Positions 27,234 through 42,917 of a stretch of DNA of 64,000 bases are shown here, one piece after another; the stretch's first letter is position 1; every line of letters begins with the position of its first letter. The translations under genes were made by a program, and so were the position numbers. The notes beneath the pieces are model-generated. The model saw only the letters and a program-made list of their open reading frames with translations. It was not told the origin of the DNA and ran no database searches. This DNA is from Arthrobacter sp. Soil763 (GTDB lineage Bacteria; Actinomycetota; Actinomycetes; Actinomycetales; Micrococcaceae): positions 315,685 to 379,684 of the forward strand of contig NZ_LMSH01000001.1 of NCBI RefSeq assembly GCF_001428365.1. Reading direction: 5' to 3'.

Positions 27234-27237
27234 ACCG

Positions 27238-28520: not shown

Positions 28521-29365
28521 CGGGTTTCGGCATCGTGGACTCGCACCTGCACCTGTGGAGCCTGGGACGCAGCCGCTACGGCTGGCTCGATTCGGTCCCG
28601 GCCCTCAAGCGGGATTTCACCGCCGCCGCCGCCCGGGCGGAACTGGACGCGGCCGGCGTCGCGGAGGCCGTCCTGGTCCAGGCCGATGACACAGTCGAGG
28701 ACACGGAGTTCCTGCTGGAAACCGCAGCCGCGGAACCCTGGGTACTCGGCGTCGTCGGCTGGATCCAGCTCGACCAGCCTGCCCGCGCGGGCGCTCAGCT
28801 GGAGCGGTGGCAACAGGCGGAGAAATTCTGCGGTGTCCGGCACCTCGTCCACGACGATCCGCGGGATGATTTCCTCGCCCTGGGGCCGGTGCGCGAATCG
28901 CTGCGCCTGCTTGCCGACGCCAGGCTGCCCTTCGACGTCCCGGACGCCTTCCCCCGCCATTTGGGCGCGGCGGCGGACCTTGCCGGGGCGCTCCCCGGGC
29001 TCACCGTGGTCATTGACCATCTGGGCAAGCCGCCGCTCGGGCAGCCGGAGGCCATGGGCCGCTGGCGGCGCGAGCTGAGGGCCTGCGCTGCCCGCCCCAA
29101 CACCGTTGCCAAGCTTTCAGGCCTTCGTATTCCGGGATCGGAATATACAGCCGCTGCCCTGGAACCGGTGTTCAACGACGCCCTGGAGCTGTTCGGTCCC
29201 GGGCGCCTCATGTTCGGCGGCGATTGGCCGGTTTCCGTTCCGGGCGGGGGCTACCAGCCGACCTGGCTTACGCTGCAGGAACTGATCGGGACGCTCAGTC
29301 CGGCCGAGCAGGACGCGGTACTAGGCGCCACGGCTCGCCGGGTATATACCCCGGACGCAGGGTAG
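28517..29365 (+). CDS. Amidohydrolase family protein, probable L-fucono-lactonase
   Basis: 282 residues of the COG3618 amidohydrolase group: metal-binding HLH in IVDSHLHLWSL, GVRHLVHDDPRDDFL, LTVVIDHLGKPPLGQ, KLSGL, and RLMFGGDWPVSVPGGGY with the catalytic Asp. This group includes L-fucono-1,5-lactonase and L-rhamnono-lactonase. It opens the lactone made by the dehydrogenase, giving L-fuconate for the dehydratase. The start (28517) is defined by the ATGA overlap. It is the last gene of the operon; 89 bp later the GntR regulator begins. Confidence 0.87.
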   Translation: MTGFGIVDSHLHLWSLGRSRYGWLDSVPALKRDFTAAAARAELDAAGVAEAVLVQADDTVEDTEFLLETAAAEPWVLGVVGWIQLDQPARAGAQLERWQQAEKFCGVRHLVHDDPRDDFLALGPVRESLRLLADARLPFDVPDAFPRHLGAAADLAGALPGLTVVIDHLGKPPLGQPEAMGRWRRELRACAARPNTVAKLSGLRIPGSEYTAAALEPVFNDALELFGPGRLMFGGDWPVSVPGGGYQPTWLTLQELIGTLSPAEQDAVLGATARRVYTPDAG

Positions 29366-29454: not shown

Positions 29455-30282
29455 ATGACAAACCCCCCAGCCGCAGCCGCCGTGGCGGCGAGCGAGGCCT
29501 CTCCTGCCAAAATGGTCAAGGACGCGTCGCTGCCCATGTACAAACAGCTTTGCGACCAGCTGATCCGGGAGATCGCGACCCGCAAACTGCCTCCCGGCCA
29601 CCGCCTCCCCGGCGAGCACGGCATGTGCGAGCTGTACGGCGTGTCCCGGACGGTCGTCCGGCAGGCGCTCGGCCAGTTGGAGCACGACGGCGTCATCGAA
29701 CGGGTCAAGGGCAAGGGAACGTTCGTCGCGCCACGCAAGGTCTCGGAGAGCCTGGTCCATACCCTCCGCGGCCTCTACGCGGACGTTGAGGCCCGCGGCG
29801 GAAGCGTCTACAGCGACGTGCGCCGCCAGGAGCTGGTCCCGGCCGATGAGGCGGTGGCCGAGGCGTTGCGGGTCCCGCCGGGCGAACAGGTCGTGGTGCT
29901 GGAGCGGCTCCGCTATGTGGAGGACTCCCCCTGGTCCCTGACCACCACCTACCTCCCCGGGGACATGGCTGACATCGTGCTCGGCGCCGACTTCCGCAAC
30001 CAGTCCCTCTACGCCCTGCTGGCCAGCAACGGCATCCGGGCCCACCACGGCATCCGCTCCGTCGAGGCGACGGTGGCAACCAAGAGCCAGGCCGAGGCGC
30101 TCCGGATCGTCAAGGGTGCCCCGCTCATGCAGCTCAGGAGTATCGTCTACGACGCAGCGGACCACCCGCTGGAGTTCTTCGTGGCGCACCACCGCGGCGA
30201 CCAGAGCCGCTTCGAGGTCGTCATTGACGCCACGTCGGAGGCCTCGGGCACCGCCGGATTCCACCGCGTCACCACGGGGTAG
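29455..30282 (+). CDS. GntR family transcriptional regulator (HutC/UTRA type)
   Basis: 275 residues. The N-terminal winged helix has the GntR pattern LPMYKQLCDQLIREIATRKLPPGHRLPGEHGMCELYGVSRTVVRQALGQLEHDGVIERVKGKGTFV, followed by a UTRA ligand-binding domain (VLERLRYVEDSPWSLTTTYLP... LRSIVYDAADHPLEFFVAHHRGDQSRFEV). UTRA domains bind sugars or their phosphates. The ATG at 29455 is preferred; an upstream ATG at 29407 overlaps a TAAAAT -10-like box (29403-29408). Its likely target is the AACCTGTAATTACAGGTT palindrome 61 bp downstream of its stop, in the promoter of the cupin-kinase operon. Confidence 0.87.
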   Translation: MTNPPAAAAVAASEASPAKMVKDASLPMYKQLCDQLIREIATRKLPPGHRLPGEHGMCELYGVSRTVVRQALGQLEHDGVIERVKGKGTFVAPRKVSESLVHTLRGLYADVEARGGSVYSDVRRQELVPADEAVAEALRVPPGEQVVVLERLRYVEDSPWSLTTTYLPGDMADIVLGADFRNQSLYALLASNGIRAHHGIRSVEATVATKSQAEALRIVKGAPLMQLRSIVYDAADHPLEFFVAHHRGDQSRFEVVIDATSEASGTAGFHRVTTG

Positions 30283-30323: not shown

Positions 30324-30360
30324 TTGGACCCTCCCGGCATGTAACCTGTAATTACAGGTT
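30324..30360 (+). promoter_or_regulatory. Promoter with perfect 18-bp operator palindrome over the -10
   Basis: The -35 box TTGGAC is at 30324-30329 and the -10 box TGTAAT at 30347-30352, with a 17-bp spacer. AACCTGTAATTACAGGTT (30343-30360) is a perfect 18-bp palindrome covering the -10. Its CTGTAATTACAG core resembles the GT...AC form of HutC-subfamily GntR operators. A regulator bound here should block RNA polymerase. It precedes the cupin gene by 47 bp and follows the GntR gene. Confidence 0.75.
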
Positions 30361-30406: not shown

Positions 30407-30991
30407 GTGAGCGACTTCATCACCCCGCCGGTTCCGCCCATGACCATCCATTTCGATGCCCAGGCGGGAACCCTGACGCCCGAGGGGCCCGTACTTGAGC
30501 GGCGGATGTCCGATCTTGAGGGGCTGTTCGCGGACAAGGGAGCCTGGGACGAAGCCGTCGCCAACGGCAATCCGGTCGTGTACTCCGTGGTCTCCACCCC
30601 CGTCCCCGAGGTGGACCGGGAGCTGCCGCAGTCGATCACCACGATCGAGCCCGGCACCACCGCCGGTGAATTCTGGATGACCAAGGGCCACCAGCACCCG
30701 AACCACCAGGGTGAGATCTACCTGGGCATCTCGGGGCAGGGCGGCCTGCTGATGTTCGACGGCGAGAACACCTCCTGGGTGGACATGGCCCCCGGGGTCA
30801 TCGGCTACATCCCGCCGGGCTGGGCGCACCGCAGCGTCAACGTGGGCTCCGAACCCTACAAGTTCCTTGCCGTCTACCCCGGAGGTGCGGGCCACGACTA
30901 CGGCTGGGTCCTGGAGAACGGCATGGGCCAGCGCGTCTACTCCTCGGACGCGGGCCACGAATTCGCGCCCTTCTTCGCGGCGCAGGCCTAG
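30407..30991 (+). CDS. Cupin-fold glucose-6-phosphate isomerase family protein
   Basis: 194 residues. The archaeal-type GPI cupin (family PF06560) is recognised from TTIEPGTTAGEFWMTKGHQHPNHQGEIYLGISGQGGLLMFDGENTSWVDMAPGVIGYIPPGWAHRSVNVGSEPYKFLAVYPG. GHxH, the Glu of GEIY and the His of WAHRSVN form the expected metal site. Such enzymes isomerise aldose and ketose phosphates or related sugars. GTG 30407 is used, with AGGAGA 8 nt upstream. It is the first gene of a six-gene operon and is followed by an FGGY kinase, so its substrate may be a free pentose or hexose rather than glucose-6-phosphate. Confidence 0.82.
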   Translation: MSDFITPPVPPMTIHFDAQAGTLTPEGPVLERRMSDLEGLFADKGAWDEAVANGNPVVYSVVSTPVPEVDRELPQSITTIEPGTTAGEFWMTKGHQHPNHQGEIYLGISGQGGLLMFDGENTSWVDMAPGVIGYIPPGWAHRSVNVGSEPYKFLAVYPGGAGHDYGWVLENGMGQRVYSSDAGHEFAPFFAAQA

Positions 30992-31009
30992 GACGGAAGG
31001 ACCGGTCCC

Positions 31010-32512
31010 ATGATCATCGCCCACGATCTCGGCACGACGGGAAACAAGGCCTCCCTGCACGAGGCCGACGGCACCTTGCTGAAGGCTGTCACTATCGGTT
31101 ACGAACCGCATTTTGCCGCCGGCGGCCGCGCCGAGCAGGATCCCGACGTCTGGTGGAATGCGGTGGTCCAGGCGACCCGAAAACTCCTGGCCGAATCCGG
31201 CGCGGACCCGGCAGCGGTGCAGGGCCTGGTCGTGGGCGGGCAGATGATGGGCGCCGTCCTCCTCGACGGCGACTACGCTCCGGTCCGGCCTGCCCTGATC
31301 TGGGCCGACCACCGCAGCGTCGCCCAGTCCGACGAACTCGCGGCGGCCTTTGACGAGCAGGAGGCCTACGCCATGCTGGGCCACCGCATCAATCCCACGT
31401 ATTCGCTGAGCAAGGTCATGTGGGTGCGGGACAACGAACCCGAGGTTTTCGGCCGCGTCCGCCACATCTGCCTGGCCAAGGACTACGTCGTGCACCGGCT
31501 GACCGGCCGGCTGGCGACCGACCATTCGGATGCCTCGGCGACGAACGCCTACGACCAGGGCACCGGCACGTGGTCGGAGCGGATGCTGGCCGCGGCCCGG
31601 ATCGACCCGGGGCTGTTTCCGGAAATCCTCAAGTCGACCGACGTCGTCGGCCCCCTCACCCCCGCCGCGGCGGCTGCCACGGGGCTGGGCACGGGGACCT
31701 CGGTGGTGATGGGCGGCGGTGACGGCCCCGTTGCAGCCGTGGGCGCCGGCGTCGTCTCCGAGGACGACCAGGCCTACGTGTACCTCGGCTCCTCCTCCTG
31801 GGTGCAGATCGTCACCCCGGCCCCGCTGATCGACCCGCTCCGGCGGACCATGACGTTCGACCACGTCATCGACGGGAAATATGTCCCCACCGCGACCATG
31901 CAGGCCGGCGGGGCCTCGCTGCAATGGGCCGCCGGGCTGTTCTCCGACCCCGGCGAGAAGGGCCGCTTCGACCGGCTCATCGCCGAAGCATCAACAGCCA
32001 CCGCCAGCGAGTCCGGCCTGTTCTTCCTCCCGCACCTGCTCGGCGAGCGCTCACCCTACTGGAATCCGCAGGCCGCCGGCGCCTTCGTCGGCCTGGAGAT
32101 GCACCACGGACGCGCGAGCATGATCCGCTCGGTCCTCGAAGGGGTGGCTTTCAACCTGGGGACCTGCATCAACGCCTTCAACGAGTCCGGGGCGGCGATC
32201 AGCCGGATCGACGCGATCGGCGGCGGCGCGGCCAGCGACACCTGGCTGCAGATCATGGCCGACGTCTGGGGCCTGCCGGTCCGGCGCAGGAGCATCGTCG
32301 AAGAGGCCAACAGCCTCGGCGCCGCGGTCACCGCAAGCGTGGGGCTCGGCCTCGTGCCCGATTTCGGCACCGCACGGGACCTGTCCCGGGTGACTGCAGA
32401 GTTCCAGCCGGACCGTGAAGCCCATGAGCGTTACCGTTCGGCGCACCAGACCTTCCTCGATGCCTACGGGCGGCTGGAACCGTGGTTCCCCGGCCGACGG
32501 GGGAACCACTGA
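31010..32512 (+). CDS. FGGY-family carbohydrate kinase (xylulokinase-like)
   Basis: 500 residues. The N-terminal loop IIAHDLGTTGNKASLHEADGTLL, the substrate/catalytic region VRPALIWADHRSVAQSDEL, and the C-terminal nucleotide loops (MGGGDGPVAAVGAGVV; IDAIGGGAASDTWLQIMADVWGLPVRR) place it in the FGGY kinases closest to xylulokinase. The Asp of WADHR is the likely base. It phosphorylates a sugar or polyol at a terminal hydroxyl. It starts 18 bp after the cupin and its stop shares a base with the next start (TGATG). It is only distantly similar to the kinase at 22546, so the two probably serve different sugars. Confidence 0.87.
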   Translation: MIIAHDLGTTGNKASLHEADGTLLKAVTIGYEPHFAAGGRAEQDPDVWWNAVVQATRKLLAESGADPAAVQGLVVGGQMMGAVLLDGDYAPVRPALIWADHRSVAQSDELAAAFDEQEAYAMLGHRINPTYSLSKVMWVRDNEPEVFGRVRHICLAKDYVVHRLTGRLATDHSDASATNAYDQGTGTWSERMLAAARIDPGLFPEILKSTDVVGPLTPAAAAATGLGTGTSVVMGGGDGPVAAVGAGVVSEDDQAYVYLGSSSWVQIVTPAPLIDPLRRTMTFDHVIDGKYVPTATMQAGGASLQWAAGLFSDPGEKGRFDRLIAEASTATASESGLFFLPHLLGERSPYWNPQAAGAFVGLEMHHGRASMIRSVLEGVAFNLGTCINAFNESGAAISRIDAIGGGAASDTWLQIMADVWGLPVRRRSIVEEANSLGAAVTASVGLGLVPDFGTARDLSRVTAEFQPDREAHERYRSAHQTFLDAYGRLEPWFPGRRGNH

Positions 32513-33480
32513 TGCCGGTCGTCCTCGTCACCTCGCGGTCCTTTTCCTCCGGCGAGCAGGACCTGGTGTCCCGGCTGGAGCGCGGCGGCTATACGATCCG
32601 CCGGGGCCCCGCCGACCACTCCCTGGCCGCCATCGGCGCCGACCTTGCCGTGGCGGAAGGCTGGATCGCCGGAACCGGCGAAGTCACCGCCCGCCACCTG
32701 GACGCCGCCCCGCGGCTGAAGGTCCTCGCCCGCTACGGCGTCGGCTTCGAGGCCGTGGACGTCCGCGCGGCAGCGGAGCGCGGCGTCGTGGTCACCAACA
32801 CCCCCGGCGCCAATTCACACGCCGTCGCCGAACATTCGCTGGCCCTCATGCTGGCCGCCCTGCGGACGGTCACGGAAGGCGACCGCCGCGTACGGGCCCG
32901 CGACTGGTCCGTCATCCGGGGAAGGGAGCTGGGTTCGCTCGCAGTGGGACTGGTCGGCTTCGGCCGGATCGGGCAGATCGTCGCCCGCCTGCTGGGCGGA
33001 TTCGGTTCCGCCGTGTACGCCTCCGACCCGTTCCTGAGCCCGGAACAAGTCCGCGCCCTCGGCGCCGAACCGCTGGACCTGGCCGGGATGGCGGCCACGT
33101 GCGACGTGATCTCGCTGCACGCCCCGGGCGGCCAGCAACTTATCGACGCCGCCTGGCTCGCCGCTACGGCGAAACCCGTCGTCCTGGTCAACACCGCGCG
33201 TCCGGAACTGGTCGATGAGGCCGCCGTCGCCGCTGCCCTGCACACGGGAGACCTCGCGGCCTTCGCGGCGGACACCCTGCGCGGGGACACCAGCGGGCAG
33301 GACTCCCCCGTCCTGGACCCGCAGCTCGCGTCCCGGGTGGTCATCACCCCGCACTTCGGCGCGCAGACCGTCCAGGCCGTCGACGGCATGGGCTCCATCG
33401 CCGTCGACAACCTGCTCGCCGTCCTGGAAGGGCGGACACCGCCCAACCCCGTCAGCCCGACTCCCCTGAAAGTGAACTAA
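32512..33480 (+). CDS. D-isomer specific 2-hydroxyacid dehydrogenase (phosphoglycerate dehydrogenase-like)
   Basis: 322 residues. The NAD domain has GLVGFGRIGQIVARLLGGFG, and the catalytic residues fall in VVLVNTARPELVDEAA (Arg, replacing the usual NxxRG with NTARP) and VITPHFGAQT (His). N-terminal features such as ARYGVGFEAVDVRAAAERGVVVTNTPG match the family. It reduces 2-oxoacids or oxidises 2-hydroxyacids. In this operon it may act on a sugar acid or its phosphate made by the lactonase, or on a product of the aldolase. The start is fixed by the TGATG junction with the kinase; the stop overlaps the aldolase start (TAATG). Confidence 0.85.
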   Translation: MPVVLVTSRSFSSGEQDLVSRLERGGYTIRRGPADHSLAAIGADLAVAEGWIAGTGEVTARHLDAAPRLKVLARYGVGFEAVDVRAAAERGVVVTNTPGANSHAVAEHSLALMLAALRTVTEGDRRVRARDWSVIRGRELGSLAVGLVGFGRIGQIVARLLGGFGSAVYASDPFLSPEQVRALGAEPLDLAGMAATCDVISLHAPGGQQLIDAAWLAATAKPVVLVNTARPELVDEAAVAAALHTGDLAAFAADTLRGDTSGQDSPVLDPQLASRVVITPHFGAQTVQAVDGMGSIAVDNLLAVLEGRTPPNPVSPTPLKVN

Positions 33481-34115
33481 TGGCCGATCTTTCCAAACTC
33501 AGGCAAACCCGGGTCCTCGCCGTCGTGCGTGCCCCCGACACTGAAAGCGCCCTGCGCGGTGCCGCGGCACTGCTCGAGGGCGGCGTGAACGGGCTGGAGA
33601 TCACCTACTCCACCCCGGACGCCCCCGCTGTGATCCGTGCGCTGCGCGCCGAGTACGGCGACGCCGTCTACCTTGGGGCCGGCACGGTCCTCACCCAGCG
33701 CCAGGCGGAGGACGCGGTCGATGCCGGTGCGGAGTTCCTGGTCAGCCCGGGTACGGTCGCGGAGACCGTCGCCGCCATGAAGGCGACCGGCTCGCTCGTC
33801 ATGGCCGGAGCTTTGACGCCGACGGAGGTCCTCACGGCCGTAGGCCTCGGTGCCGATGTGGTGAAGATCTTCCCGGCCTCCCTCGGCGGCCCGTCGTACT
33901 TCCGGGCCCTTCGCGGCCCGCTGCCCGACGTGCCCCTCATGCCGACCGGCGGGGTCACCCCCGGCAACATCGCGGACTGGTTCGCGGCGGGCGCAGTCGC
34001 CGTCGGCGCCGGCGGCGACCTCTGCTCCACCGCCGATCTGGCGGCCGGGCGCTACGACGTCGTGCGTGAGAACGCCCGCACCTTCAGCGCCGCACTCGAA
34101 AGGACCTTTGCATGA
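33480..34115 (+). CDS. KDPG/KHG-type aldolase
   Basis: 211 residues of the class I 2-keto-3-deoxy-6-phosphogluconate/4-hydroxy-2-oxoglutarate aldolase barrel. The general base is E40 in GLEITYSTPDA, the Schiff-base lysine is K129 in GADVVKIFPASLGGPSYFRALRGPLP, and the phosphate-binding loop is PTGGVTPGN. It splits a 2-keto-3-deoxy sugar acid, usually phosphorylated, into pyruvate and an aldehyde. A dedicated dehydratase for making that substrate is not present in the operon. Starts and stops overlap its neighbours on both sides, which points to obligate co-expression. Confidence 0.88.
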   Translation: MADLSKLRQTRVLAVVRAPDTESALRGAAALLEGGVNGLEITYSTPDAPAVIRALRAEYGDAVYLGAGTVLTQRQAEDAVDAGAEFLVSPGTVAETVAAMKATGSLVMAGALTPTEVLTAVGLGADVVKIFPASLGGPSYFRALRGPLPDVPLMPTGGVTPGNIADWFAAGAVAVGAGGDLCSTADLAAGRYDVVRENARTFSAALERTFA

Positions 34116-35026
34116 GCAGCTACATGGGATTTGTCGGCGTGACCACCTCGGGTTCGTCGATCATGAAGATCTTCCCCGAGTGGGCCCGCATCCTCCACCT
34201 GCCCACCGACCGCCTCACCGGCCACGACCTGCCCCTCGGGGCCGGGCGGGACCAATACCGGGAACTGGTCACCCGGATCCGCGACGACGCGAGCCACCGC
34301 GGCGCCCTGGTCACCACGCACAAGATGGACCTGTACCAGGCCGCGCACGACCTCTTCGACGAGATTGACGAATTCGGCACGCTCTGCGGGGAAATTTCCA
34401 GCATCTCCAAGCGGGACGGCCGGTTGATCGGCCACGCGAAGGACCCCATCACGGCGGGCCTTGCCCTCGAGGAATTCCTGCCGCCGGGACACTTCAAGGA
34501 GACCGGCGCGCACGTCGTCTGCCTGGGTGCCGGCGGTGCCGGCACCGCACTGACCTGGTACCTGGCCGGCCATGCCGACGCGCCGGAGAAAATCATCTGC
34601 ACGGACACCAGCCCTGTCCGGCTCCAGCACCTCGCCGATGTCCATGCCCGGGGCCAGCTGCCCGCCGCGCTCTTTGAGTACCGCCTGATCGAACGCCCGG
34701 AGGATACGGCCCGGGTACTGGCCGAGACTCCCGCCGGGAGCCTGGTGGTCAACGCCAGCGGCCTCGGCAAGGACCGGCCCGGTTCCCCCGTCCCCGACGG
34801 CGTCGATTTTCCGCGGGAAGCAATCGTCTGGGAGTTCAACTACCGCGGTTCCCTGGAGTTCCTCGCCCAGGCCCGCGCGCAGGAGGCACAGCGCCAGCTC
34901 ACCGTCGTGGACGGCTGGCGCTACTTCATCCACGGCTGGAGCCAGGTCATCGCCGAGGTGTTCGACGTCGAACTCACCGGCGAGGTGCTGGACCGGCTCG
35001 CCGACGCCGCGGCAGGGGCCAGATGA
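34112..35026 (+). CDS. Shikimate dehydrogenase-like oxidoreductase in a sugar operon
   Basis: 304 residues with an AroE-type two-domain fold: substrate loop VTTSGSSIMKIFPEW, catalytic Lys71 in ALVTTHKMDLY, Asp111 in IGHAKDPITAGLALEEF, then the NAD(P) loop VVCLGAGGAGTALTWYLAG. The Lys/Asp dyad of shikimate dehydrogenase is kept, but the usual NTDG is changed to AKDP and the protein is about 30 residues longer than AroE. It is therefore unlikely to be the biosynthetic AroE. The location between an aldolase and a lactonase, with ATGA overlaps on both sides, suggests oxidation or reduction of a hydroxyl on a sugar-derived acid. Its substrate is unknown. Confidence 0.75.
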   Translation: MSSYMGFVGVTTSGSSIMKIFPEWARILHLPTDRLTGHDLPLGAGRDQYRELVTRIRDDASHRGALVTTHKMDLYQAAHDLFDEIDEFGTLCGEISSISKRDGRLIGHAKDPITAGLALEEFLPPGHFKETGAHVVCLGAGGAGTALTWYLAGHADAPEKIICTDTSPVRLQHLADVHARGQLPAALFEYRLIERPEDTARVLAETPAGSLVVNASGLGKDRPGSPVPDGVDFPREAIVWEFNYRGSLEFLAQARAQEAQRQLTVVDGWRYFIHGWSQVIAEVFDVELTGEVLDRLADAAAGAR

Positions 35027-35979
35027 GCTTCGTCCGCACGGTCCTTGGCGACATCGCGCCGGACCGGCTGGGGCCGACCAACTACCACGAGCACCTGTTC
35101 CAGGCCTCACCCCTGCTGCCCGGGGACGAGCTGGACAACGAGCTGCTTTCCGGCCGTGAGGCGGCCTTGCTGCGGGGCGCCGGCACCACCGCGATGGTGG
35201 AGGCGACCCCGCTCGGCCTCGGCCGGAACCCGGCGGCGACGGCACGCATAGCCGCCGCCGCCGGGCTGCACATCGTTGCCACCACCGGCGCCCACCGCGA
35301 AGCGCACTACCCGGAGGGGCACTGGCTCCGCAGCGAACCGGAGGAGCGCCTCGCCCGGCGCTTTACCGCCGAACTCACGGCTGGCTGCGGCGTGCCCGAA
35401 GAATCGCCCGCGGCCGCCGGGGAGGCGCCGGTTCGCGCCGGGCTGCTGAAGGCCGGTGTGGGCTACTGGTCCATCACCGCCTTTGAACGCCGGGTGCTCG
35501 CCGCCGCGGCGGTCGCCCACTCGGTGACGGGGGCTCCGGTGATGGTGCACCTGGAATTCTGCACGGCGGCCCACGAAGTCCTGGACCTGCTGTCCGCAGG
35601 GGGTGTCCGGGAGTCCCGGGTGATCCTGGCCCACGCCGACCGCAATCCCGACGCCGGACTGCACCTGGAGCTGGCCTCCCGGGGCGCCTACCTCGGCTAC
35701 GACGGCATGGCCCGCCCCAAGGGCCGCTCCGACGCCGAACTCATCGATCTCACCGAGCAGGTCCTTGCCGGGGGCGGCGGCCACAGGCTGCTCCTCGGCG
35801 GCGACGTCGCGCGCCGCACCCGGTACATCTCCTACGGCGGCATGCCCGGCCTGGCGTACCTGGCCGAACGCTTCCTGCCGCGCCTCGAGGCCCGCGTCGG
35901 CGCCGACGCCGTCGACCGCATCCTGCGCGGGAACGCCGCGGCGGTGCTGCAGTGGACCGGGAGCGAGCAACCCCGGTAA
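35023..35979 (+). CDS. Phosphotriesterase-family hydrolase, probable (phospho)sugar lactonase
   Basis: 318 residues. All metal ligands of the phosphotriesterase fold are visible: H22 and H24 (YHEHL), the lysine that is carboxylated in this family (K143, GLLKAGVG), H176 (MVHLEF), H204 (LAHADRNPD) and the catalytic Asp D261 (GGDVARR). Characterised relatives in bacteria hydrolyse furanose lactones of sugar phosphates rather than phosphotriesters. With a sugar kinase and dehydrogenases in the same operon, hydrolysis of a phospho-aldonolactone is the best guess. It is last in the operon, coupled to the upstream gene by ATGA, and followed by a strong terminator. Confidence 0.82.
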   Translation: MSFVRTVLGDIAPDRLGPTNYHEHLFQASPLLPGDELDNELLSGREAALLRGAGTTAMVEATPLGLGRNPAATARIAAAAGLHIVATTGAHREAHYPEGHWLRSEPEERLARRFTAELTAGCGVPEESPAAAGEAPVRAGLLKAGVGYWSITAFERRVLAAAAVAHSVTGAPVMVHLEFCTAAHEVLDLLSAGGVRESRVILAHADRNPDAGLHLELASRGAYLGYDGMARPKGRSDAELIDLTEQVLAGGGGHRLLLGGDVARRTRYISYGGMPGLAYLAERFLPRLEARVGADAVDRILRGNAAAVLQWTGSEQPR

Positions 35980-36047
35980 GAGCCCGCCTGCCGTGCTCCC
36001 TGGGCCGGCGCATCCGCCACCGGACGCGGAAATGCCCCGGACGCGGA

Positions 36048-36086
36048 GAGGCCCCGGACCGCTGAATTGCGGTCCGGGGCCTCTTT
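36048..36086 (+). terminator. Rho-independent terminator after the cupin-kinase operon
   Basis: A perfect 15-bp stem (GAGGCCCCGGACCGC at 36048-36062 with 36069-36083), loop TGAATT, then TTT. It lies between the convergent lactonase (stop 35979) and the ABC binding-protein gene (stop 36108) and may serve both, although the T-run is only on the plus strand. Confidence 0.85.
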
Positions 36087-36107: not shown

Positions 36108-37091
36108 TTACTGGTAGAGCACCGCGGCGATCTTGGCGTCGTCCATGTTGTTCTTGTCGTACCAGTAGAACGGGGTGTCGGTGACCTTCTCCAGGGGCTT
36201 GCCCTTGGAAGCGTCGATCGCCGCCTGGACGGTGGCCGCGCCCATGCCGATCGGGTCCTGCGTGATGGCGCCGGCCATCAGGCCGCTGCGGATCGCATCG
36301 AGCTGGGCCTTGCCGGAGTCGAAGCCGATGACGGTGAGCTTGCCGGGCTTAAGGCCAAGCTCGGTGACGGCATTGACGATGCCGACGGCCGAGCCTTCGT
36401 TGGTGCCATAGAGGCCCTTGAGGTTCGGGTGCCCCTGGATCATGGCCTTGGCGATGTCGGCGGACTTCAGGTGGTCGCCGTCGCCGTACTGGACGTCAAC
36501 GACCTTGATGTCCGGGTACTTGGCCTTGATCTCGTTGAGGAATCCATCGCGGCGCTCCACGCCGGTGCTGTTGATCTGGCTGTGGCCGACGACGGCGATT
36601 TCCCCGCTCTTGCCGATCAGCTCGGCCATGTGGTCGGCCGCCATGGCGCCGGCATCCATGCTGTTCGTCTTGGACAGGTTGACCGGGTAGTCGCTCTTGC
36701 AGCCGGCGTCGAACTGGACCACGGGGATGTTGGCGGCCTTGGCCTGCTCAAGGGCCGGAACACAGGCCTCCGGGTCCAGGGCGGCGTAGGCGATGGCCGT
36801 CGGCTTCTTGTCGATGGCCGCCTGGAGCATCTGCAGCTGCGAGTCGATCTCGGTTTCTGCGGCCGGGCCCTCGAAGGTGATCTTGACCCCGAGCTCCTTG
36901 GCCTTGTCCTCGGCGCCCTTCTTCACGGCCTGCCAGAACTGGTGCTGGAAGCCCTTGGAAATCATGGCCACGTACGGCGTGCCGCCGTCGCTGCCGCCGC
37001 TGGGAGCTGCCGAGCCGGAGCCGCCGCAGGCGGTCAAGGAAAGAGCTGCAGCGAGAGCACCCGCCGCGAGGGCCTTTTTACCGAGTTTCAT
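36108..37091 (-). CDS. Sugar ABC transporter substrate-binding lipoprotein
   Basis: 327 residues. It begins with a lipoprotein signal ending in LSLTAC-GGSGSA, so the mature Cys is lipidated and the protein faces outward. The rest is the periplasmic-binding fold of the ribose/autoinducer type (PYVAMISKGFQHQFWQAVKKGAEDKAKELGVKITFEGPAAETE... NIPVVQFDAGC... KGLYGTNEGSAVGIVNAVTELG... VIGFDSGKAQLDAIRSG). ATG 37091 has GGAG 8 nt upstream; a start 12 bp earlier would include that site. It follows the permease and ATPase genes after a 154-bp gap with a long hairpin. A role in uptake of the local sugar is inferred. Confidence 0.9.
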   Translation of the reverse strand: MKLGKKALAAGALAAALSLTACGGSGSAAPSGGSDGGTPYVAMISKGFQHQFWQAVKKGAEDKAKELGVKITFEGPAAETEIDSQLQMLQAAIDKKPTAIAYAALDPEACVPALEQAKAANIPVVQFDAGCKSDYPVNLSKTNSMDAGAMAADHMAELIGKSGEIAVVGHSQINSTGVERRDGFLNEIKAKYPDIKVVDVQYGDGDHLKSADIAKAMIQGHPNLKGLYGTNEGSAVGIVNAVTELGLKPGKLTVIGFDSGKAQLDAIRSGLMAGAITQDPIGMGAATVQAAIDASKGKPLEKVTDTPFYWYDKNNMDDAKIAAVLYQ

Positions 37092-37203
37092 GTAAATCTC
37101 CATCCAGTGAGCGGGCCGGCAACATTGCGGGCCCTAGATCATTGTTGTTGCTTTACTGCGTTAAGTACAGGTAGATACAAGTTATTTTTTGAGCAATCTT
37201 TTT

Positions 37204-37239: not shown

Positions 37240-37245
37240 GGCTGC

Positions 37246-38262
37246 CTACGCCTCCCGGCGGCGGCGCAGCGAGTCGGTGAAGACGGCGACCAGGATCACG
37301 ATGCCGACCACGACGGTCTGCCATTCGGTCTGCACCGACATGATGCGCAGGCCGTTGATCAGCACGCTCATAATGAGGGCGCCGATCAGGGTGCCGAGGA
37401 CCGATCCCCGGCCTCCCAGCAGGGACGTGCCGCCGATGATGACGGCGGCAATCGCCTGCAGCTCGTAGCCGGATCCCAGCTGTGGCTGCGCGGAGTCGAG
37501 CCGGGCGGCAATGACGACGCCCGCGACGCCGGTGAAGATGCCTGCGACCGTGTAGACAAGAATCTTCCACTTGCCGGTGTTGACGCCGGAGATCTTGGTG
37601 GCTTCCTCGTTGCTGCCGATCGCAAAGATGTAGCGGCCCAGCAGGGTCTTGCCGAGCACCAGGTACGCCGCGACGCCGGTCAGGAGCAGAATCAGCACGG
37701 CGTTGGGCAGCCCGGGGATGAGCTGGCCCAGGGCAATGTCCTTGAAGCCCTTGACCTTGCTGAAGTAGATGGGACGCACGCCGGAGAGGACAAGGGCCAG
37801 CCCCTGCGCGATCAGCATCATGGCGAGGGTGGCGATGAACGGCGGGAGCTTCAGGACGGAGACGTTCAGTCCGTTGATCAGCCCCATCAGCGCCCCGGTG
37901 GCGATGCCGCCCAGCACACCGATGTACAACGGCAACTGGAAGTTCACCAGCAGCAGGCCCGTCACCACCGCACACAGGGTCATGCCGGTGCCAATGGACA
38001 GGTCGATTCCGGAGGTGATGATGACCAGCGTGGTGCCGAATGCCAGGATGCCGATCACGGCGGTGGAGAGCAGGATCCCGGAGATGTTCGTCCAGGTAAA
38101 GAAGTTAGTGCTGGCGAGGGAGAAGAACACCAGCAGGACGATCAAGGTTCCGAAGGCCAACGACTGCTGCAGCCGCTGGCGCAAGAATGATCCCCTGGGC
38201 GCCTCGCGCGTCGCGGCACCCGCCGGCGCCTGCGTGCGCGGTTCAGACTTTACTTCGCTCAT
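37246..38262 (-). CDS. Sugar ABC transporter permease (RbsC family)
   Basis: 338 residues, eight to ten membrane helices after a polar N-terminal 30 residues. RbsC-like landmarks are GILAFGTTLVIITSGIDLSIGTGMTLCAVVTG, GGIATGALMGLINGLNVSVLKLPPFIATLAMMLIAQGLAL, AIGSNEEATKISGVNTGKWKILVYTVAGI and AVIIGGTSLLGGRGSVLGTLIGALI (the cytoplasmic coupling region). It forms a homodimer channel for sugar import with the ATPase upstream. Its ATG overlaps the ATPase stop by 4 bp. Substrate probably a rare hexose such as D-allulose/D-allose or D-ribose, from neighbouring genes. Confidence 0.9.
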   Translation of the reverse strand: MSEVKSEPRTQAPAGAATREAPRGSFLRQRLQQSLAFGTLIVLLVFFSLASTNFFTWTNISGILLSTAVIGILAFGTTLVIITSGIDLSIGTGMTLCAVVTGLLLVNFQLPLYIGVLGGIATGALMGLINGLNVSVLKLPPFIATLAMMLIAQGLALVLSGVRPIYFSKVKGFKDIALGQLIPGLPNAVLILLLTGVAAYLVLGKTLLGRYIFAIGSNEEATKISGVNTGKWKILVYTVAGIFTGVAGVVIAARLDSAQPQLGSGYELQAIAAVIIGGTSLLGGRGSVLGTLIGALIMSVLINGLRIMSVQTEWQTVVVGIVILVAVFTDSLRRRREA

Positions 38263-39851
38263 TTTTCCGCTCCCTGCTGCTCCACCCGTGTGGCGTAGTC
38301 CATGATTGTTGCTTGATCAGCACCGTCGCTGTCGATTTCCCCGGTGATACGGCCTCCGGCCATCACCATGATCCGGTGGGACAACCGGAGGACCTCCGGC
38401 AGTTCCGAGGAGATCATGATGATCGACTTGCCCCGCGCCACCAGGTCGTTGAGCAAGCGGTAAATTTCTTCCTTGGCTCCGATGTCGATGCCGCGGGTCG
38501 GCTCGTCGAAGATGAGAATGTCGCAGTCGCGGGCCAGCCATTTGGCAATGACGACTTTTTGCTGGTTGCCGCCCGACAGGTTTTTCGTCGTCGCGTACAT
38601 CGACGGGGTCTTGATACGCAGCGAGTCAATGTATTTCTGCGACGTTCCCTTGCCCGGCGCTGACTTCATGAAGCCGACCGGGTTGGTGTAGTTGGCCAGT
38701 GAGGACAGCAGGATGTTCGTGTTCACGTCCCGGTCCAGCAGCAGCCCCAGGGCCTTGCGGTCCTCGGAGAGGTAACCGATCCCGTGCTTGACGGCGTCCG
38801 CCGGCTGCCCGATCCGGACCTCCTTGCCGTTGACGAAGATCTGGCCCGCGGACATCCGGTCCGCGCCGATGATGGCCCGCGCAAGCTCCGTCCGCCCCGC
38901 GCCCATCAGGCCGGAGAACCCGAGAATCTCCCCGCGCCGCAATTCGAAACTGACGTCCTTGAGCAGTTTGCGCGTGCTCAGGTTCTGCACCCGCAGGACC
39001 ACATCGTCGACGTTGTCCCGGCGCACATTCTCCGGCCGGGCATTTTCGTCGATTTCCCGACCGACCATCAGCTTGATCACCTCGTGCTGGCTCGCCGTGT
39101 CGGTGTCCATCGTGGCGATGTACTTCCCGTCGCGGAGGATGGTGATGCGGTCGGTGATCCGCCGCAACTCCTCCATGCGGTGCGAAATGTAGATCACCCC
39201 GACGCCGCGGTCGCGCAGGTCGTTGATCAGGCGGAACAGGGTCTCCGTTTCCGAAGTCGTCAGCGCCGACGTCGGCTCATCCATGATGACGACCTTGGCG
39301 TCAAAGGACAGCGCCTTGGCGATCTCCACCATCTGCTGCTTCGCGACCGTCAGGTTCTCGATCAGGTCCGTCGGCGCGAACTCCTTGATTCCAAGCCGGT
39401 CGAGCAGTTCGGCGGTTTGCCGGTTCAGCTTTTTTTCGTCCAGCAGGAGTCCACCCAGGCGCCGCGGCTCCCGGCCGATGTAGATGTTCTGGGCGACCGT
39501 AAGGTGCGGCATCAGGTTCATCTCCTGATGGACGATGATGATGCCCAGCTCCTGTGCATGCCGCGGACCGTCGATCTGCACGGGCACACCCTCAAGGTAG
39601 ATCGTGCCCGCATCCTTCTCGTAGATGCCGGACAGGATCTTCATCAGGCTGGACTTGCCCGCCCCGTTTTCGCCCACCAGCGCGATAACCTCGCCCTTGT
39701 GGACGTCAAAGTGGACGTCGCTCAGGGCCTGGACGCCGGGAAAGCTCTTGCTGATCCCTTCGACCTTCAGTAGTGGTTCACCCACTGTCTCACCTACTTC
39801 TTCGGAGATAACGCTGATGCCTCGCGGCCGGTACTCGTTGGGCGGCGGCAC
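38259..39851 (-). CDS. Sugar ABC transporter ATP-binding protein (RbsA/MglA family)
   Basis: 530 residues with two nucleotide-binding domains. The first has GENGAGKSSL (Walker A), LTVAKQQMVEIAKAL (degenerate signature) and VVIMDEPTSAL (Walker B). The second has a degenerate Walker A (GLMGAGRTEL), a good LSGGNQQK signature and ILIFDEPTRGID. This asymmetric pattern is normal for RbsA/MglA importers. The GTG at 39851 is the only start giving the full length; a GTG about 24 codons later (GEPLLKVEG) is an alternative. It is the first gene of the minus-strand ABC operon, divergent from the ketose 3-epimerase gene at 39972. Confidence 0.9.
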   Translation of the reverse strand: MPPPNEYRPRGISVISEEVGETVGEPLLKVEGISKSFPGVQALSDVHFDVHKGEVIALVGENGAGKSSLMKILSGIYEKDAGTIYLEGVPVQIDGPRHAQELGIIIVHQEMNLMPHLTVAQNIYIGREPRRLGGLLLDEKKLNRQTAELLDRLGIKEFAPTDLIENLTVAKQQMVEIAKALSFDAKVVIMDEPTSALTTSETETLFRLINDLRDRGVGVIYISHRMEELRRITDRITILRDGKYIATMDTDTASQHEVIKLMVGREIDENARPENVRRDNVDDVVLRVQNLSTRKLLKDVSFELRRGEILGFSGLMGAGRTELARAIIGADRMSAGQIFVNGKEVRIGQPADAVKHGIGYLSEDRKALGLLLDRDVNTNILLSSLANYTNPVGFMKSAPGKGTSQKYIDSLRIKTPSMYATTKNLSGGNQQKVVIAKWLARDCDILIFDEPTRGIDIGAKEEIYRLLNDLVARGKSIIMISSELPEVLRLSHRIMVMAGGRITGEIDSDGADQATIMDYATRVEQQGAEK

Positions 39852-39971: not shown

Positions 39972-40841
39972 ATGATGATTGGCTGCCACAGCCTGGTCTG
40001 GAACGGCTCGCTGGACCCGGTTTCCTTCGCCGCCTCGGCCCGCGCGACGTCCGAGGCCGGGTTCGATTTGCTCGAAATCCCGCTCATGGATCCCTGGTCC
40101 TTCGATCCTGGACAGGCGTCCCGGGCCCTGCGGGAGCACGGCCTGGCCGCGACCGCATCCCTCGGCCTGACCGCCGGGACTGACCTCAGCAGCGAGGACG
40201 CCTCCGTGGTGGCCAGGGGCGAGGAGACCCTCAACAAGTGCCTCGAACTCGTCCACGACCTGGAGGCCGACTACCTGTGCGGCGTGCTCTACAGCGCCAT
40301 GCAGAAGTACGACCGGCCACCCACCGCGGCCGGCCGCCGCAACAGCGCCGCCGCCCTGCACCGACTCGCGGACCGCGCCGCGACGCTTGGTATCAAGCTG
40401 GGCCTGGAGGTGGTGAACCGCTACGAGAGCAACCTGCTGAACACCGGCAGGCAGGCCCTTGCCTTCATGGACGAAATCGACCATGACAACGTCTTCCTGC
40501 ATCTCGACACCTACCACATGAACATCGAGGAACCGGACCTGTTGAGCCCGGTGCTCGCGGCGGGAGCCAGGCTGGGTTACGTCCACATCGGCGAAAGCCA
40601 CCGCGGCTATCTCGGCTCCGGAAGCGTGGATTTCGGCGCCTTTTTCCGCGGCCTGGCGCTGGTCGGCTACGACGGGCCGGTGGTCTTTGAGTCGTTCTCC
40701 TCCGCCGTTGTGGATGACAACCTGAGCAACACCCTGGGCGTATGGCGCAACCTCTGGGAGGACTCGGCGGACCTGGGCGCCCATGCCAACGCTTTCATCC
40801 GCGGCCAGCTGGCGGCGGTTTCCTCCATCGCCAAGCACTAA
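39972..40841 (+). CDS. D-allulose/D-tagatose 3-epimerase family ketose epimerase
   Basis: 289 residues of the xylose-isomerase-like TIM barrel. The Mn-binding quartet of ketose 3-epimerases is E146 (LEVVNRYE), D179 (HLDTYHMNIEE), H205 (VHIGESHRGYLGSGSVDF) and E240 (VFESFSS), offset by six from the P. cichorii D-tagatose 3-epimerase numbering. Overall it closely resembles the Arthrobacter globiformis D-allulose epimerase as I remember that sequence, including the HIGESHRGYLGxGSVDF and LGAHANAFIR segments. It inverts C3 of free ketoses, e.g. D-fructose and D-allulose. It starts the operon epimerase-rbsK-rbsD-transaldolase, with GGGAGA before the ATG. Confidence 0.9.
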   Translation: MMIGCHSLVWNGSLDPVSFAASARATSEAGFDLLEIPLMDPWSFDPGQASRALREHGLAATASLGLTAGTDLSSEDASVVARGEETLNKCLELVHDLEADYLCGVLYSAMQKYDRPPTAAGRRNSAAALHRLADRAATLGIKLGLEVVNRYESNLLNTGRQALAFMDEIDHDNVFLHLDTYHMNIEEPDLLSPVLAAGARLGYVHIGESHRGYLGSGSVDFGAFFRGLALVGYDGPVVFESFSSAVVDDNLSNTLGVWRNLWEDSADLGAHANAFIRGQLAAVSSIAKH

Positions 40842-40866: not shown

Positions 40867-41820
40867 ATGACTACCACCAGCGAAAACGGGCGCGAGGGCG
40901 TCGTTATCGTAGGAAGTATCACTGCCGACGTCACAACTTTTTCAAAACGACTGCCCCAGAGAGGCGAAACGATCCTCGGGGAGGAGTTCACCCTGCTGCT
41001 CGGAGGCAAGGGAGCGAACCAGGCCGTCGCCAGCGGGCTGGCGGGCGCTCCGTCCTTCATGGTGGGGTGCGTCGGCAATGACCTGTTCAGGCCTCTGGTC
41101 ACCGACGGGCTGGAGGCGCACGGAGTGGACACCAGCGAACTGCGGGTGGTCGAGGCCCCCACCGGGATCGCCCACATCCGGGTGGACGATTCCGGGGAAA
41201 ACGACATTGTGATGGTGCCGCTCGCCAACGACCACCTGACTCCCGGCCAGATTTCCGACGCGGTCTCCCGCCTCGCGCCGCGGGCGTCGGTCCTGCTCAC
41301 CCAGCTGGAAATCCCCCGCGAGGCCGCCGCCCACGCGGTCCGGGCCGCCCGGACCGCCGGGTTGACGGTTATCCTCGACCCCGCGCCGGCTGCCGCCCTC
41401 GACCGGGAGACCTGGGCCAGCGTGGATTTTGTCACGCCCAACGAGACCGAAGCGAGCCTGATTACCGGCATTCCGGTCACGGACGCGGCGAGCGCGGTCC
41501 GCGCCGGGGAATGGTTCCTGGCGCAGGGTACCGGGGGCGCCATCATCACCCTCGCCTCAGCCGGGGCGGTCCTGGTCACGGCCGACCGGCAGACGGTCTT
41601 CGATTCCTACCCCGTGACCGCCGTCGACACCACCGCCGCCGGCGACGCCTTTTCCGGTTACCTGGGCGCCTCGCTCGCCGCAGGCTTGTCCATTGACGAG
41701 GCCATCCGGCGCGCGATGGCCGCGGGAGCTCTGGCCGTCACCAAGAAGGGCGCTTCCCCCAGCCTGCCCGCCGCCGACGATGTCGATCTTTTCCTTTCCG
41801 CCCATGTCCCAAGCCGCTAG
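40867..41820 (+). CDS. rbsK: Ribokinase (PfkB family)
   Basis: 317 residues. Ribokinase features are VVIVGSITADVTTFSKRLPQRGETILGEEFTLLLGGKGANQAVASGLAG (sugar-binding GG and GAN), QLEIPREAAAHAVRAARTAGLTVILDPAPA, VTPNETEASLITGI, and DTTAAGDAFSGYLGASLAAG with the catalytic Asp. It phosphorylates ribose or a related sugar at O5; next to a ketose 3-epimerase it might act on a ketohexose. RBS and ATG (40867) follow a TAAACATCCGA motif that overlaps the epimerase stop codon. The gap to the epimerase is 25 bp. Confidence 0.88.
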   Translation: MTTTSENGREGVVIVGSITADVTTFSKRLPQRGETILGEEFTLLLGGKGANQAVASGLAGAPSFMVGCVGNDLFRPLVTDGLEAHGVDTSELRVVEAPTGIAHIRVDDSGENDIVMVPLANDHLTPGQISDAVSRLAPRASVLLTQLEIPREAAAHAVRAARTAGLTVILDPAPAAALDRETWASVDFVTPNETEASLITGIPVTDAASAVRAGEWFLAQGTGGAIITLASAGAVLVTADRQTVFDSYPVTAVDTTAAGDAFSGYLGASLAAGLSIDEAIRRAMAAGALAVTKKGASPSLPAADDVDLFLSAHVPSR

Positions 41821-41829: not shown

Positions 41830-42249
41830 ATGAGAAAAACCCACGGAATCCTCAACCCCCAGCTCTCGCGGGTGGTGTCCGAAACCGGCCACACGGACAC
41901 GCTCGTGGTGACCGACGCCGGCCTGCCGATCCCGCCGGCGGTCGAACGCGTCGACCTTGCCTACTTCCCGTCCGAACCGCCGTTCCTGGCGGTCCTGGAC
42001 GCGGTCCTCGCCGAAGTGGTGATCGAAGGCGCCACCCTGGCTGAGGAGATCCGCGAGGCCAGCCCCGCGATGCTCAGCCGCATCCTCGAGCGGCTCAATG
42101 CGGCCGGGGTGGTTCCGGACTTCGTCCCGCACACCGAGTTCAAGGCCCGCACGGCCTCGGCCCGCGCCGCCGTTCGGTCCGGCGAGTTCACTCCCTACGC
42201 CAACATCATCCTTCATGCCGGCGTCGCCTACGGCCCGGACGAGACCTAG
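41830..42249 (+). CDS. rbsD: D-ribose pyranase
   Basis: 139 residues, normal RbsD length and very similar to the classic family: GILNPQLSRVVSETGHTDTLVVTDAGLPIPPAVERVDLAYFPSEPPFLAVLDAVLAEVVIEGATLAEEI, with His21 at the active site, and SARAAVRSGEFTPYANIILHAGVAY at the C-terminus. It converts beta-pyranose to beta-furanose (or keto/other anomers), supplying the form used by RbsK. It is a decamer in known cases. It lies 9 bp after rbsK and 8 bp before the transaldolase gene. Confidence 0.93.
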   Translation: MRKTHGILNPQLSRVVSETGHTDTLVVTDAGLPIPPAVERVDLAYFPSEPPFLAVLDAVLAEVVIEGATLAEEIREASPAMLSRILERLNAAGVVPDFVPHTEFKARTASARAAVRSGEFTPYANIILHAGVAYGPDET

Positions 42250-42257: not shown

Positions 42258-42917
42258 GTGCATTTTTATCTGGACACGGCGGACCGGGCTCAAGCCGAGC
42301 CGCTGCTGCGCAGCGGGCTTTTCGCGGGCCTGACCACCAACCCGAGCATCCTCGCTGGCGCCGGGGTGCTGAACCGCAGCATCCCGGAGCTGGTCGACTG
42401 GGCGTCCGCGGCCGGCGCGGGCACGGTCTTCGTCCAGTCGTGGGGCTCAAGCAAGGCCGAACTGGAGGACCGGGGGGCGTGGATCCAGTCCCTGGGCAGC
42501 AATGTCGTGGTGAAGGTCCCCGCCACGGCGGCGGGCATCGCCGCCAGCCGGACCCTCACCTCGGGGGGCGCCCGGGTCCTGGTCACGGCGGTCTATGCAC
42601 GGGAACAGGCGCTGCCGGCGATGGCCGCGGGTGCCGAGTTCCTGGCCCCGTACCTGGGTCGGATGCACGACGCCGGCCGCGACGGAACCGCCGAAATCGC
42701 GGCCATCCAGCAGTTCATCACTGCCGGCGGCTCGCCGCTTAAGCTCCTTGTCGCCAGCCTCCGGGAGACAGCCCAGATAGCCTCCCTGGCCGGGCTGGGC
42801 GTCTCTCATTTCACCCTGGCTCCGGGGACGTGGCAGAAGTTCTTCGCCGATCCGCTCACCGCTGCCGCCGTCGAGGTCTTCGAAGCCGAATCCGCGCGGA
42901 TGGAGGGCGCCGCCTAG
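42258..42917 (+). CDS. Small transaldolase / fructose-6-phosphate aldolase family protein
   Basis: 219 residues, the short FSA-type transaldolase. The N-terminal MHFYLDTADRAQAEPLLRSGLFAGLTTNPSIL is diagnostic, the Schiff-base lysine is K86 (NVVVKVPATAAG), matching the Lys85 position of E. coli FSA, and SHFTLAPGTWQKFFADPLTAAAVEVFEAE closes it. It transfers or releases dihydroxyacetone from ketose phosphates. After epimerase and kinase steps this could cleave a ketohexose 6-phosphate. GTG start. Its stop overlaps the end of the convergent FadR-type regulator by 4 bp. Confidence 0.88.
   Translation: MHFYLDTADRAQAEPLLRSGLFAGLTTNPSILAGAGVLNRSIPELVDWASAAGAGTVFVQSWGSSKAELEDRGAWIQSLGSNVVVKVPATAAGIAASRTLTSGGARVLVTAVYAREQALPAMAAGAEFLAPYLGRMHDAGRDGTAEIAAIQQFITAGGSPLKLLVASLRETAQIASLAGLGVSHFTLAPGTWQKFFADPLTAAAVEVFEAESARMEGAA

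Follow-up and report, generated by a model that had tools for sequence, protein, structure and literature searches.

The six + strand genes that fill positions 30407-35979 of the 64,000-nt window (the whole stretch of DNA analysed here) look like a genuine, previously undescribed route for rare-sugar breakdown. Our preferred reading, which we put a little short of an even chance, is that this operon forms the core of a dedicated regulon degrading a rare ketose, supplied as such or derived from a polyol or aldose, via phosphorylated oxidised intermediates. Open frames overlap by 1-4 bases at four of the five junctions, the cupin-kinase pair being separated by an 18-base gap instead, and five of the six products exceed their own Pfam cut-offs (PF06560 GPI, FGGY N and C, 2-Hacid_dh, PF01081, and PF02126), confirming the six-gene operon, gene families, and overlaps named in the first-pass annotation. 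Its label of a sugar-acid pathway is probably wrong, as a ketose, polyol, or aldose appears to be the starting compound, and acids would be intermediates. Its statement that no described pathway has this set still holds for the open-access literature searched, passages of PMC7954740, PMC5507952, and PMC9881201 included, where no account of the six-gene set was found. The operon and the element behind it are:

30407..30991, + strand, cupin sugar-phosphate isomerase (archaeal PGI family), predicted; PF06560, GTG start
31010..32512, + strand, FGGY sugar kinase, xylulokinase-like; FGGY N and C, TIGR01312
32512..33480, + strand, D-2-hydroxyacid dehydrogenase, phosphoglycerate dehydrogenase being nearest; 2-Hacid_dh
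33480..34115, + strand, KDPG/KHG-type class I aldolase; PF01081, TIGR01182
34112..35026, + strand, AroE-fold dehydrogenase, proposed aldose-phosphate dehydrogenase; predicted fold, conserved residues
35023..35979, + strand, PTE-superfamily hydrolase, proposed phospho-lactonase; PF02126
36047..36084, no strand, hairpin between convergent operons, GC-rich, its 16-base stem perfect; sequence

The hairpin is probably a terminator, judging by its sequence, and is absent from the output of a consensus scan. An alternative in-frame GTG start is possible for the hydroxyacid dehydrogenase at 32482.

In the order of steps that we infer, the sugar would be taken up through an Rbs-type transporter and the free ketose 3-epimerised where needed, before the FGGY kinase converts it to a ketose phosphate and the cupin isomerase turns this into an aldose phosphate. 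The AroE-fold enzyme would oxidise the latter at C1 to a phospho-lactone, which the PTE-type hydrolase would convert to a phospho-aldonate. C2 oxidation by the phosphoglycerate-dehydrogenase-like enzyme might then give a 2-keto-phospho-aldonate for C3-C4 cleavage by the KDPG-type aldolase into a three-carbon keto acid (hydroxypyruvate if no dehydration takes place) and a phosphorylated aldehyde, which would be glyceraldehyde-3-P if the sugar is a hexose and glycolaldehyde-P if it is a pentose. A GntR/UTRA repressor acting at ACCTGTAATTACAGGT would control the components of the system. The gene families fit the isomerisation, phosphorylation, oxidation, lactone hydrolysis, and aldol cleavage suggested earlier, the chemistry being predicted from sequence. 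Since the recurring dehydrogenase would yield the 2-keto acid directly, the route may need no dehydratase, and if this chemistry is true, an aldonate would enter central metabolism without one. The hydroxypyruvate step is the weakest because the known chemistry of KDPG-type aldolases involves pyruvate. More doubtful than the general reading is its most specific form, a relative of the Entner-Doudoroff pathway that dispenses with the dehydratase and has an AroE-fold lactone step, 2-keto-phospho-aldonate, and hydroxypyruvate. It would serve rare ketoses, allulose for example, in Actinobacteria and, with other kinases and lactonases, would act on ketoses or polyols in Proteobacteria.

Neighbourhoods were compared at 80 loci (80 of 132 confirmed AroE-like relatives) from 27 genus-level groups, which were set manually using record titles. 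The lactonase was found near the AroE-like relatives in 75 of these, the hydroxyacid dehydrogenase in 74, the kinase in 71, the cupin isomerase in 67, and the aldolase in just 30, while none of the 14 controls, centred on other aroE-like genes, had core partner genes. Moreover, AroE-like and PTE genes lie at most 60 nt apart on one strand in 74 of the 75 loci with both called. Recurrence of the set, empty controls, and tight adjacency of this pair indicate that the gene set is more than chance, in agreement with the earlier proposal of one functional unit. The control loci were 14 places with weak AroE-like matches, including one in the window's own genome; across the host family, 58 of 149 genomes had an AroE-like match at E <= 0.001, and those other than the window's own gene are all weak (1.1e-9 at best). 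The plasmid records covered were 15 less H6 and H7; the custom gene caller left one genome (G641, with L142 and L152) unresolved and missets some starts (e.g. at L206).

The same core occurs in Proteobacteria, and its order and overlaps are conserved, including in type II clusters that carry other kinases and regulators. In these clusters, located on rhizobial plasmids and in some genomes of the window's genus, the PTE-like protein is replaced by an MBL-fold hydrolase related to UlaG, the L-ascorbate-6-phosphate lactonase, albeit below the family cut-off (43.9 bits vs 306 at type II locus L102) and outside the window. Such a swap for an unrelated fold supports the phospho-lactone step and strengthens the lactonase role originally suggested.

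The AroE-like protein has no Pfam family above cut-off in profile searches, and its best NCBIfam match, shikimate dehydrogenase, falls well short of the 413-bit cut-off at 44.2 bits (TIGR00507: 29.3 bits against 200.2). The structure predicted for it (mean pLDDT 94.9) adopts the shikimate dehydrogenase fold, with 3tnl as best match (Z 28.1, rmsd 3.0, 275 residues aligned) and 5-ketofructose reductase among the others (Z 26.2, 3.6 A, 272 residues). Lys71 and Asp111, which we take to be the catalytic pair of shikimate dehydrogenase, are invariant in 26 aligned relatives and kept in both phyla. Fold and Lys/Asp pair are shared with 5-ketofructose reductase and shikimate/quinate dehydrogenases; unlike these, however, the AroE-like relatives group as a family apart, with invariant residues of their own, and are joined to sugar genes. 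As fold relatives act on ring hydroxyls, the enzyme might instead act elsewhere on the ring than at C1 or reduce a keto group in the manner of 5-ketofructose reductase, the lactone coming from elsewhere and aldolase, RbsK, and transaldolase serving side branches. A second cluster at locus L048, where AroE-like and MBL hydrolase genes stand with what looks by sequence like a transketolase pair, also fits this explanation. We consider it improbable, given that the core set has no other recurring aldose dehydrogenase, that the AroE-like gene is tied to the lactonase, and that a solved 5-ketofructose reductase matches only weakly by sequence (E 2.8e-4).

The cupin scores 68.8 bits for PF06560 (cut-off 20.7), its closest solved chains are archaeal-type glucose-6-P isomerases, and H95, H97, E103, and H141, presumably the metal ligands (HxH, Glu, and His) of archaeal-type phosphoglucose isomerase, align with the solved isomerases and are kept in both phyla, as are Arg230 and His281 of the hydroxyacid dehydrogenase (322-residue form), whose closest named relative in NCBIfam profiles and solved structures is phosphoglycerate dehydrogenase. 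The kinase barely passes the xylulokinase (XylB) profile TIGR01312 with 382.9 bits against 380.25. In the PTE-like protein, metal-site motifs, as we presume them to be, align with solved relatives, 3pnz being the closest chain and 3msr also among the nearest. Phospho-furanose lactonase (NF045706) is its best named family, but the equivalog cut-off of 630 lies far above its 116 bits. Low scores of the PTE-like and AroE-like proteins relative to named families, together with the limited recurrence of the aldolase, count against our preferred reading.

The aldolase itself exceeds the KDPG/KHG cut-off (TIGR01182, 191 bits vs 156.05), with Glu40 and Lys129, presumably the acid and the Schiff-base residue, kept in both phyla. 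As this family normally yields pyruvate, a route closer to Entner-Doudoroff might be envisaged, in which an outside dehydratase (the gene at 25842-27233 or an IlvD/Edd-type enzyme) forms a 2-keto-3-deoxy-phospho-acid, the aldolase releases pyruvate and a phosphorylated aldehyde, and the hydroxyacid dehydrogenase alters C2 or reduces a side product. A fuconate-dehydratase-like gene, in the window the one at 25842-27233, is indeed nearby in 39 of 80 loci, and the genome has one IlvD/Edd-type match, below the Edd cut-off (TIGR01196; no genome match exceeds it, the best reaching 248.6 bits vs 708.25). Nevertheless, we regard this route as rather unlikely: a dehydratase is not among the conserved core in the 80 neighbourhoods, no operator precedes the fuconate-dehydratase-like gene in any of the 21 loci with testable upstream DNA, and the hydroxyacid dehydrogenase, despite its constancy, would be deprived of its main job. 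The first tentative scheme is partly borne out: the gene families fit most of its steps, but its idea of a missing dehydratase step is doubtful. A second PF01081 aldolase of the genome (L128) sits beside genes that look by sequence like sugar-acid dehydratases and a PfkB kinase.

The upper branch of the oxidative pentose phosphate and Entner-Doudoroff pathways consists of Pgi, Zwf, Pgl, Edd, and Eda, and the operon follows the same logic of isomerase, sugar-phosphate dehydrogenase, lactonase, and KDPG-type aldolase. However, it has a cupin for Pgi, an AroE fold for Zwf, a PTE or MBL fold for Pgl, and a hydroxyacid dehydrogenase in the place of Edd, and separate G6PDH genes are present in the genome. 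These two G6PDH matches rule out the operon as the sole oxidative glucose-6-P branch; the cupin may still have a PGI-like duty because the only PGI-family match of the genome is weak (26.5 bits, slightly above the cut-off of 22). In the 2-ketogluconate pathway (KguE-KguK-KguD), a 2-keto acid is imported, and a kinase and a D-2-hydroxyacid dehydrogenase act on the 2-keto-phospho-aldonate, which is reduced. The operon resembles this general description in pairing the two enzymes, but the presence of an isomerase, an AroE-like enzyme, and a lactonase points to oxidation starting from a ketose.

Outside the six-gene run, yet linked or co-regulated, are a regulator, a transporter, and genes for a ketose 3-epimerase, RbsK, RbsD, and a transaldolase-like protein. 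The candidate regulatory elements are:

29512..30282, + strand, GntR/UTRA regulator; PF00392, PF07702
30343..30360, no strand, perfect palindrome AACCTGTAATTACAGGTT, candidate operator; sequence, conservation upstream of core operons

The conserved palindrome lies upstream of 60 of 68 core operons and is lacking in the other 8. At <=2 mismatches, a whole-genome search located a single AACCTGTAATTACAGGTT site in the window's own genome and none before its transporter or epimerase; the backwards-pattern control of such searches gave 3 matches in 21 genomes. The eight core operons lacking the palindrome and the single site in the window's own genome count against our preferred reading. In Microbacterium, the palindrome also stands before the transporter and an RbsK-RbsD-GntR operon; 9 of 16 genomes have it before the unlinked aldolase too, which sharpens the earlier inclusion of the aldolase. 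As core, transporter, RbsK operon, and unlinked aldolase have this palindrome in common, the parts seem to form one regulon, and the pathway becomes directly testable because the operator predicts which separate genes respond together. The GntR/UTRA gene adjoins the core in relatives or lies inside the operator-bearing RbsK-RbsD-GntR operon, so its product is probably the repressor that binds the operator. This regulon includes both an aldolase and a transaldolase-like enzyme besides two sugar kinases, and in the Microbacterium regions examined the aldolase stands apart from the core, so the regulon could also comprise two sugar routes under one regulator rather than a single linear pathway. 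Such a division is quite unlikely in our view, as core order and overlaps persist even where kinases and regulators differ. Nine Microbacterium regions (L198-L205 and L207) have an extra operator-like site before an aldo/keto reductase. In seven of them the reductase was called directly after the site, in one it is truncated, and in another a wrong long frame covers it; at L208, no such gene was found.

The neighbouring transport and sugar genes are:

36108..37103, - strand, Rbs-type sugar-binding protein; sequence relatives
37246..38262, - strand, sugar ABC transporter permease; sequence
38259..39851, - strand, sugar ABC transporter ATPase; sequence
39972..40841, + strand, ketose 3-epimerase, D-allulose 3-epimerase-like; 5zfs match
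40867..41820, + strand, ribokinase-like PfkB kinase (RbsK); TIGR02152 294.6 bits, cut-off 299.65
41830..42249, + strand, RbsD, D-ribose pyranase family; NF008761 147.8 bits, cut-off 93
42258..42917, + strand, transaldolase/fructose-6-phosphate aldolase-like protein; PF00923

Solved relatives of the sugar-binding protein span many sugars, and relatives of the transporter ATPase have the operator upstream in 29 of 53 cases. The epimerase aligns end to end with D-allulose 3-epimerase 5zfs (391.7 bits), here beside a catabolic operon and with a predicted substrate, and at locus L155 a 51% relative sits within the core gene run. An enzyme related to these epimerases is used for allulose. The regulon might offer a physiological home to orphan groups of ketose 3-epimerases, PTE-type lactonases, AroE-fold proteins, and cupins, the latter two annotated among the relatives as shikimate dehydrogenase and glucose-6-phosphate isomerase, respectively. 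Further, RbsK relatives have the operator upstream, and at L209 and L210 the transaldolase-like gene is divergent from RbsK, with the operator between them.

The six-gene set was borne out at 30407-35979 on the plus strand, with the enzyme families that the first-pass annotation had named and with the coupling that it had described, as starts and stops overlap by 1-4 bases at four of the five junctions. Directly 5' of the regulator and core region lies a gene set of the L-fucose-oxidation type. The top NCBIfam match of its amidohydrolase is L-fucono-1,5-lactonase (172.5 bits, under the cut-off of 400), and 39 of 80 loci have a relative of its MR/MLE dehydratase close to the AroE-like gene.

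Core operon and neighbouring features
24075-29365: L-fucose-oxidation type set (SDR, FAH-type hydrolase, MR/MLE dehydratase, mutarotase-like protein, aldo/keto reductase, amidohydrolase)
29512-30282: GntR/UTRA regulator, upstream of the core operon
30407-35979, plus strand: core operon, in order cupin sugar-phosphate isomerase, FGGY kinase, D-2-hydroxyacid dehydrogenase, KDPG-type aldolase, AroE-fold dehydrogenase, PTE-superfamily hydrolase
36047-36084: hairpin with a perfect 16-base stem, at the end of the core operon
Past the hairpin, minus strand: Rbs-type ABC transporter
Past the transporter, plus strand: ketose 3-epimerase, ribokinase-like kinase, RbsD, transaldolase-like gene

The core genes are a conserved unit. 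A genome-contig scan yielded 132 confirmed relatives of the AroE-like protein, and around the best 80 of these, counting genes as present at 30% identity or more over at least 70% of the length, we found the kinase in 71 loci, the hydroxyacid dehydrogenase in 74, the PTE-like gene in 75, the cupin in 67, the aldolase in 30 and the epimerase in 46. The sample is skewed towards Microbacterium (39/80 loci) and short contigs depress these counts; by genus-level group (n=27) the respective numbers were 23, 25, 23, 21, 18 and 9. None of these genes occurred among the 187 called in 14 control loci, each taken around a different Micrococcaceae AroE-like gene of weak similarity, so the neighbourhood comparison suggested at first pass shows a set that recurs across the 80 loci and is absent from the controls. 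The view that it matches no described pathway was also supported, as searches of an open-access library turned up no description. The AroE-like gene is patchy (9/396 genomes sampled from the phylum and 9/198 from the genus at E <= 1e-30), and the set therefore behaves as accessory. In Kibdelosporangium and Rhodococcus rhodnii, a solitary AroE-like gene (55%; L096 10001-10897 and L097 9776-10897) was not accompanied by the other core genes; its surroundings are common to both loci and unrelated to the core operon, and thus may reflect a second use of the family.

A perfect palindrome, AACCTGTAATTACAGGTT, lies between the regulator and cupin genes at 30343-30360. Its 16-base core, searched with up to 3 mismatches, occurred 130 times in the 1.507 Mb of the 80 loci, and 126 of these sites were within about 250 bases 5' of the core operon, the transporter ATPase gene or the RbsK gene, while none was found in the 14 control loci or in shuffled DNA (one first-order shuffle per locus). 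Sites preceded 60 of 68 core operons (17/22 groups), 29 of 53 ATPase genes and 4 of 15 RbsK genes; in the RbsK regions read (L117, L206, L209, L210) the site is followed by RbsK, RbsD and a GntR gene, the gene caller having placed the RbsK start of L206 too early. Eight core operons had no site (L029, L031, L035, L070, L081, L091, L094, L101), and L070 carries an unassigned one at 7427, near the kinase gene. The epimerase is tied more weakly to the regulon than the other parts, with a site directly upstream in 5/46 cases and, where it shares the transporter's strand, a site between it and the ATPase gene in 24/27 loci. In the window's genome, a search allowing up to 2 mismatches finds just one site, 5' of the cupin gene, and the transporter and epimerase of this genome are therefore assigned through relatives rather than by sites of their own. 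The word AGATACAAGTT, repeated in inverted orientation at 37104-37245 (5' of the binding-protein gene) and 39852-39971 (the ATPase/epimerase gap), is perhaps a diverged or second operator.

The aldolase is mostly absent from Microbacterium clusters, and a relative (61-64%) was encoded elsewhere in 17 of 17 Microbacterium genomes (22 genomes searched in all); the seven regions read (L117-L123) place it apart from the core genes. Comparing aldolase and site coordinates by hand for the 16 Microbacterium genomes common to both searches, we found a site about 50-60 bases 5' of the aldolase in nine. Looser matches (3 or 4 mismatches) precede it in L118, L120 and L122, and L121 has none at up to 4 mismatches. 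Where aldolase, transporter and regulator stand apart with sites before them, they therefore share the core operon's site, and the regulon extends to the aldolase. An operator-like site about 30 bases 5' of an aldo/keto reductase gene, near 4400-4600 in seven Microbacterium regions (L198-L203, L207), marks a possible further member.

A second cluster type carries an MBL-fold hydrolase instead of the PTE-superfamily one. AroE-like relatives were found on 15 plasmid records from rhizobia, a roseobacter, an Acetobacteraceae member and a Paraburkholderia, of which 13 were retrieved, eight with gene annotation. In all eight, the AroE-like gene has genes for an FGGY kinase, a hydroxyacid dehydrogenase and an MBL-fold hydrolase in its vicinity; seven also encode the aldolase, and seven an annotated cupin, with the eighth cupin found by tblastn; no PTE gene was found in these loci. 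The MBL hydrolase tested, that of the second-type locus L102, is related to the L-ascorbate-6-phosphate lactonase UlaG (43.9 bits, under the cut-off of 306). Three fully read genomes of the window's own genus (L149-L151) also have second-type clusters, in which the FGGY kinase is glycerol-kinase-like and is joined by an MBL hydrolase, an aldolase and additional dehydrogenases, and short loci of three more genomes resemble them. The MBL-fold hydrolase of Ensifer adhaerens carries a fused low-molecular-weight phosphatase domain (L109 12472-13737), and a same-cluster protein of Shinella (L110) is similar in length. In Microbacterium sp. Bi121 a second cluster (L048 11899-19599) adjoins the first-type operon and comprises another AroE-like gene (41%), an MBL hydrolase, HAD-like protein, transketolase-like pair and FGGY kinase, some of these names being given by eye from the sequence.

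That two unrelated metallo-hydrolases fill one role, each with phospho-lactonase kinship, is the strongest evidence for a phospho-lactone step. In alignment, the cupin retains the HxH, Glu and His residues that serve as metal ligands in archaeal phosphoglucose isomerase. The hydroxyacid dehydrogenase is closest to phosphoglycerate dehydrogenase and keeps that family's Arg and His, as would suit an enzyme that oxidises a phosphorylated 2-hydroxyacid. A point against the proposed roles is that both the PTE-like and the AroE-like protein are far under the cut-offs of their named families. For the latter, a confidently predicted shikimate dehydrogenase fold, the retained Lys/Asp pair and the family's own conserved Ser15-Ser16 and Tyr244-Arg245 suggest that the substrate may be an anionic sugar. 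Most likely is the simplest chain employing every core member, for which we infer all the chemistry: a ketose phosphate would be converted to an aldose phosphate, then to a phospho-lactone, a phospho-aldonate and a 2-keto-phospho-aldonate, which would undergo aldol cleavage. The isomerisation, phosphorylation, oxidation, lactone hydrolysis and aldol cleavage proposed at first pass fit this chain, but the assumption made there of a missing dehydratase step is doubtful. If no dehydration takes place, the three-carbon product would be hydroxypyruvate, the weakest link of the chain, and for this reason an Entner-Doudoroff-like version comes into play, in which an outside dehydratase would let the aldolase release pyruvate and a phosphorylated aldehyde; we consider it rather unlikely, as the conserved core includes no dehydratase and no site lay before the neighbouring fuconate-dehydratase-like gene in any of the 21 loci whose upstream sequence was long enough. 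Pentuloses and, in the second type, polyols are alternative candidate substrates. We favour a rare ketohexose, for instance allulose or a related sugar: the alignment of the window's epimerase with D-allulose 3-epimerase 5zfs runs from end to end, and a 51% relative sits within the core gene run of locus L155, between kinase and regulator.
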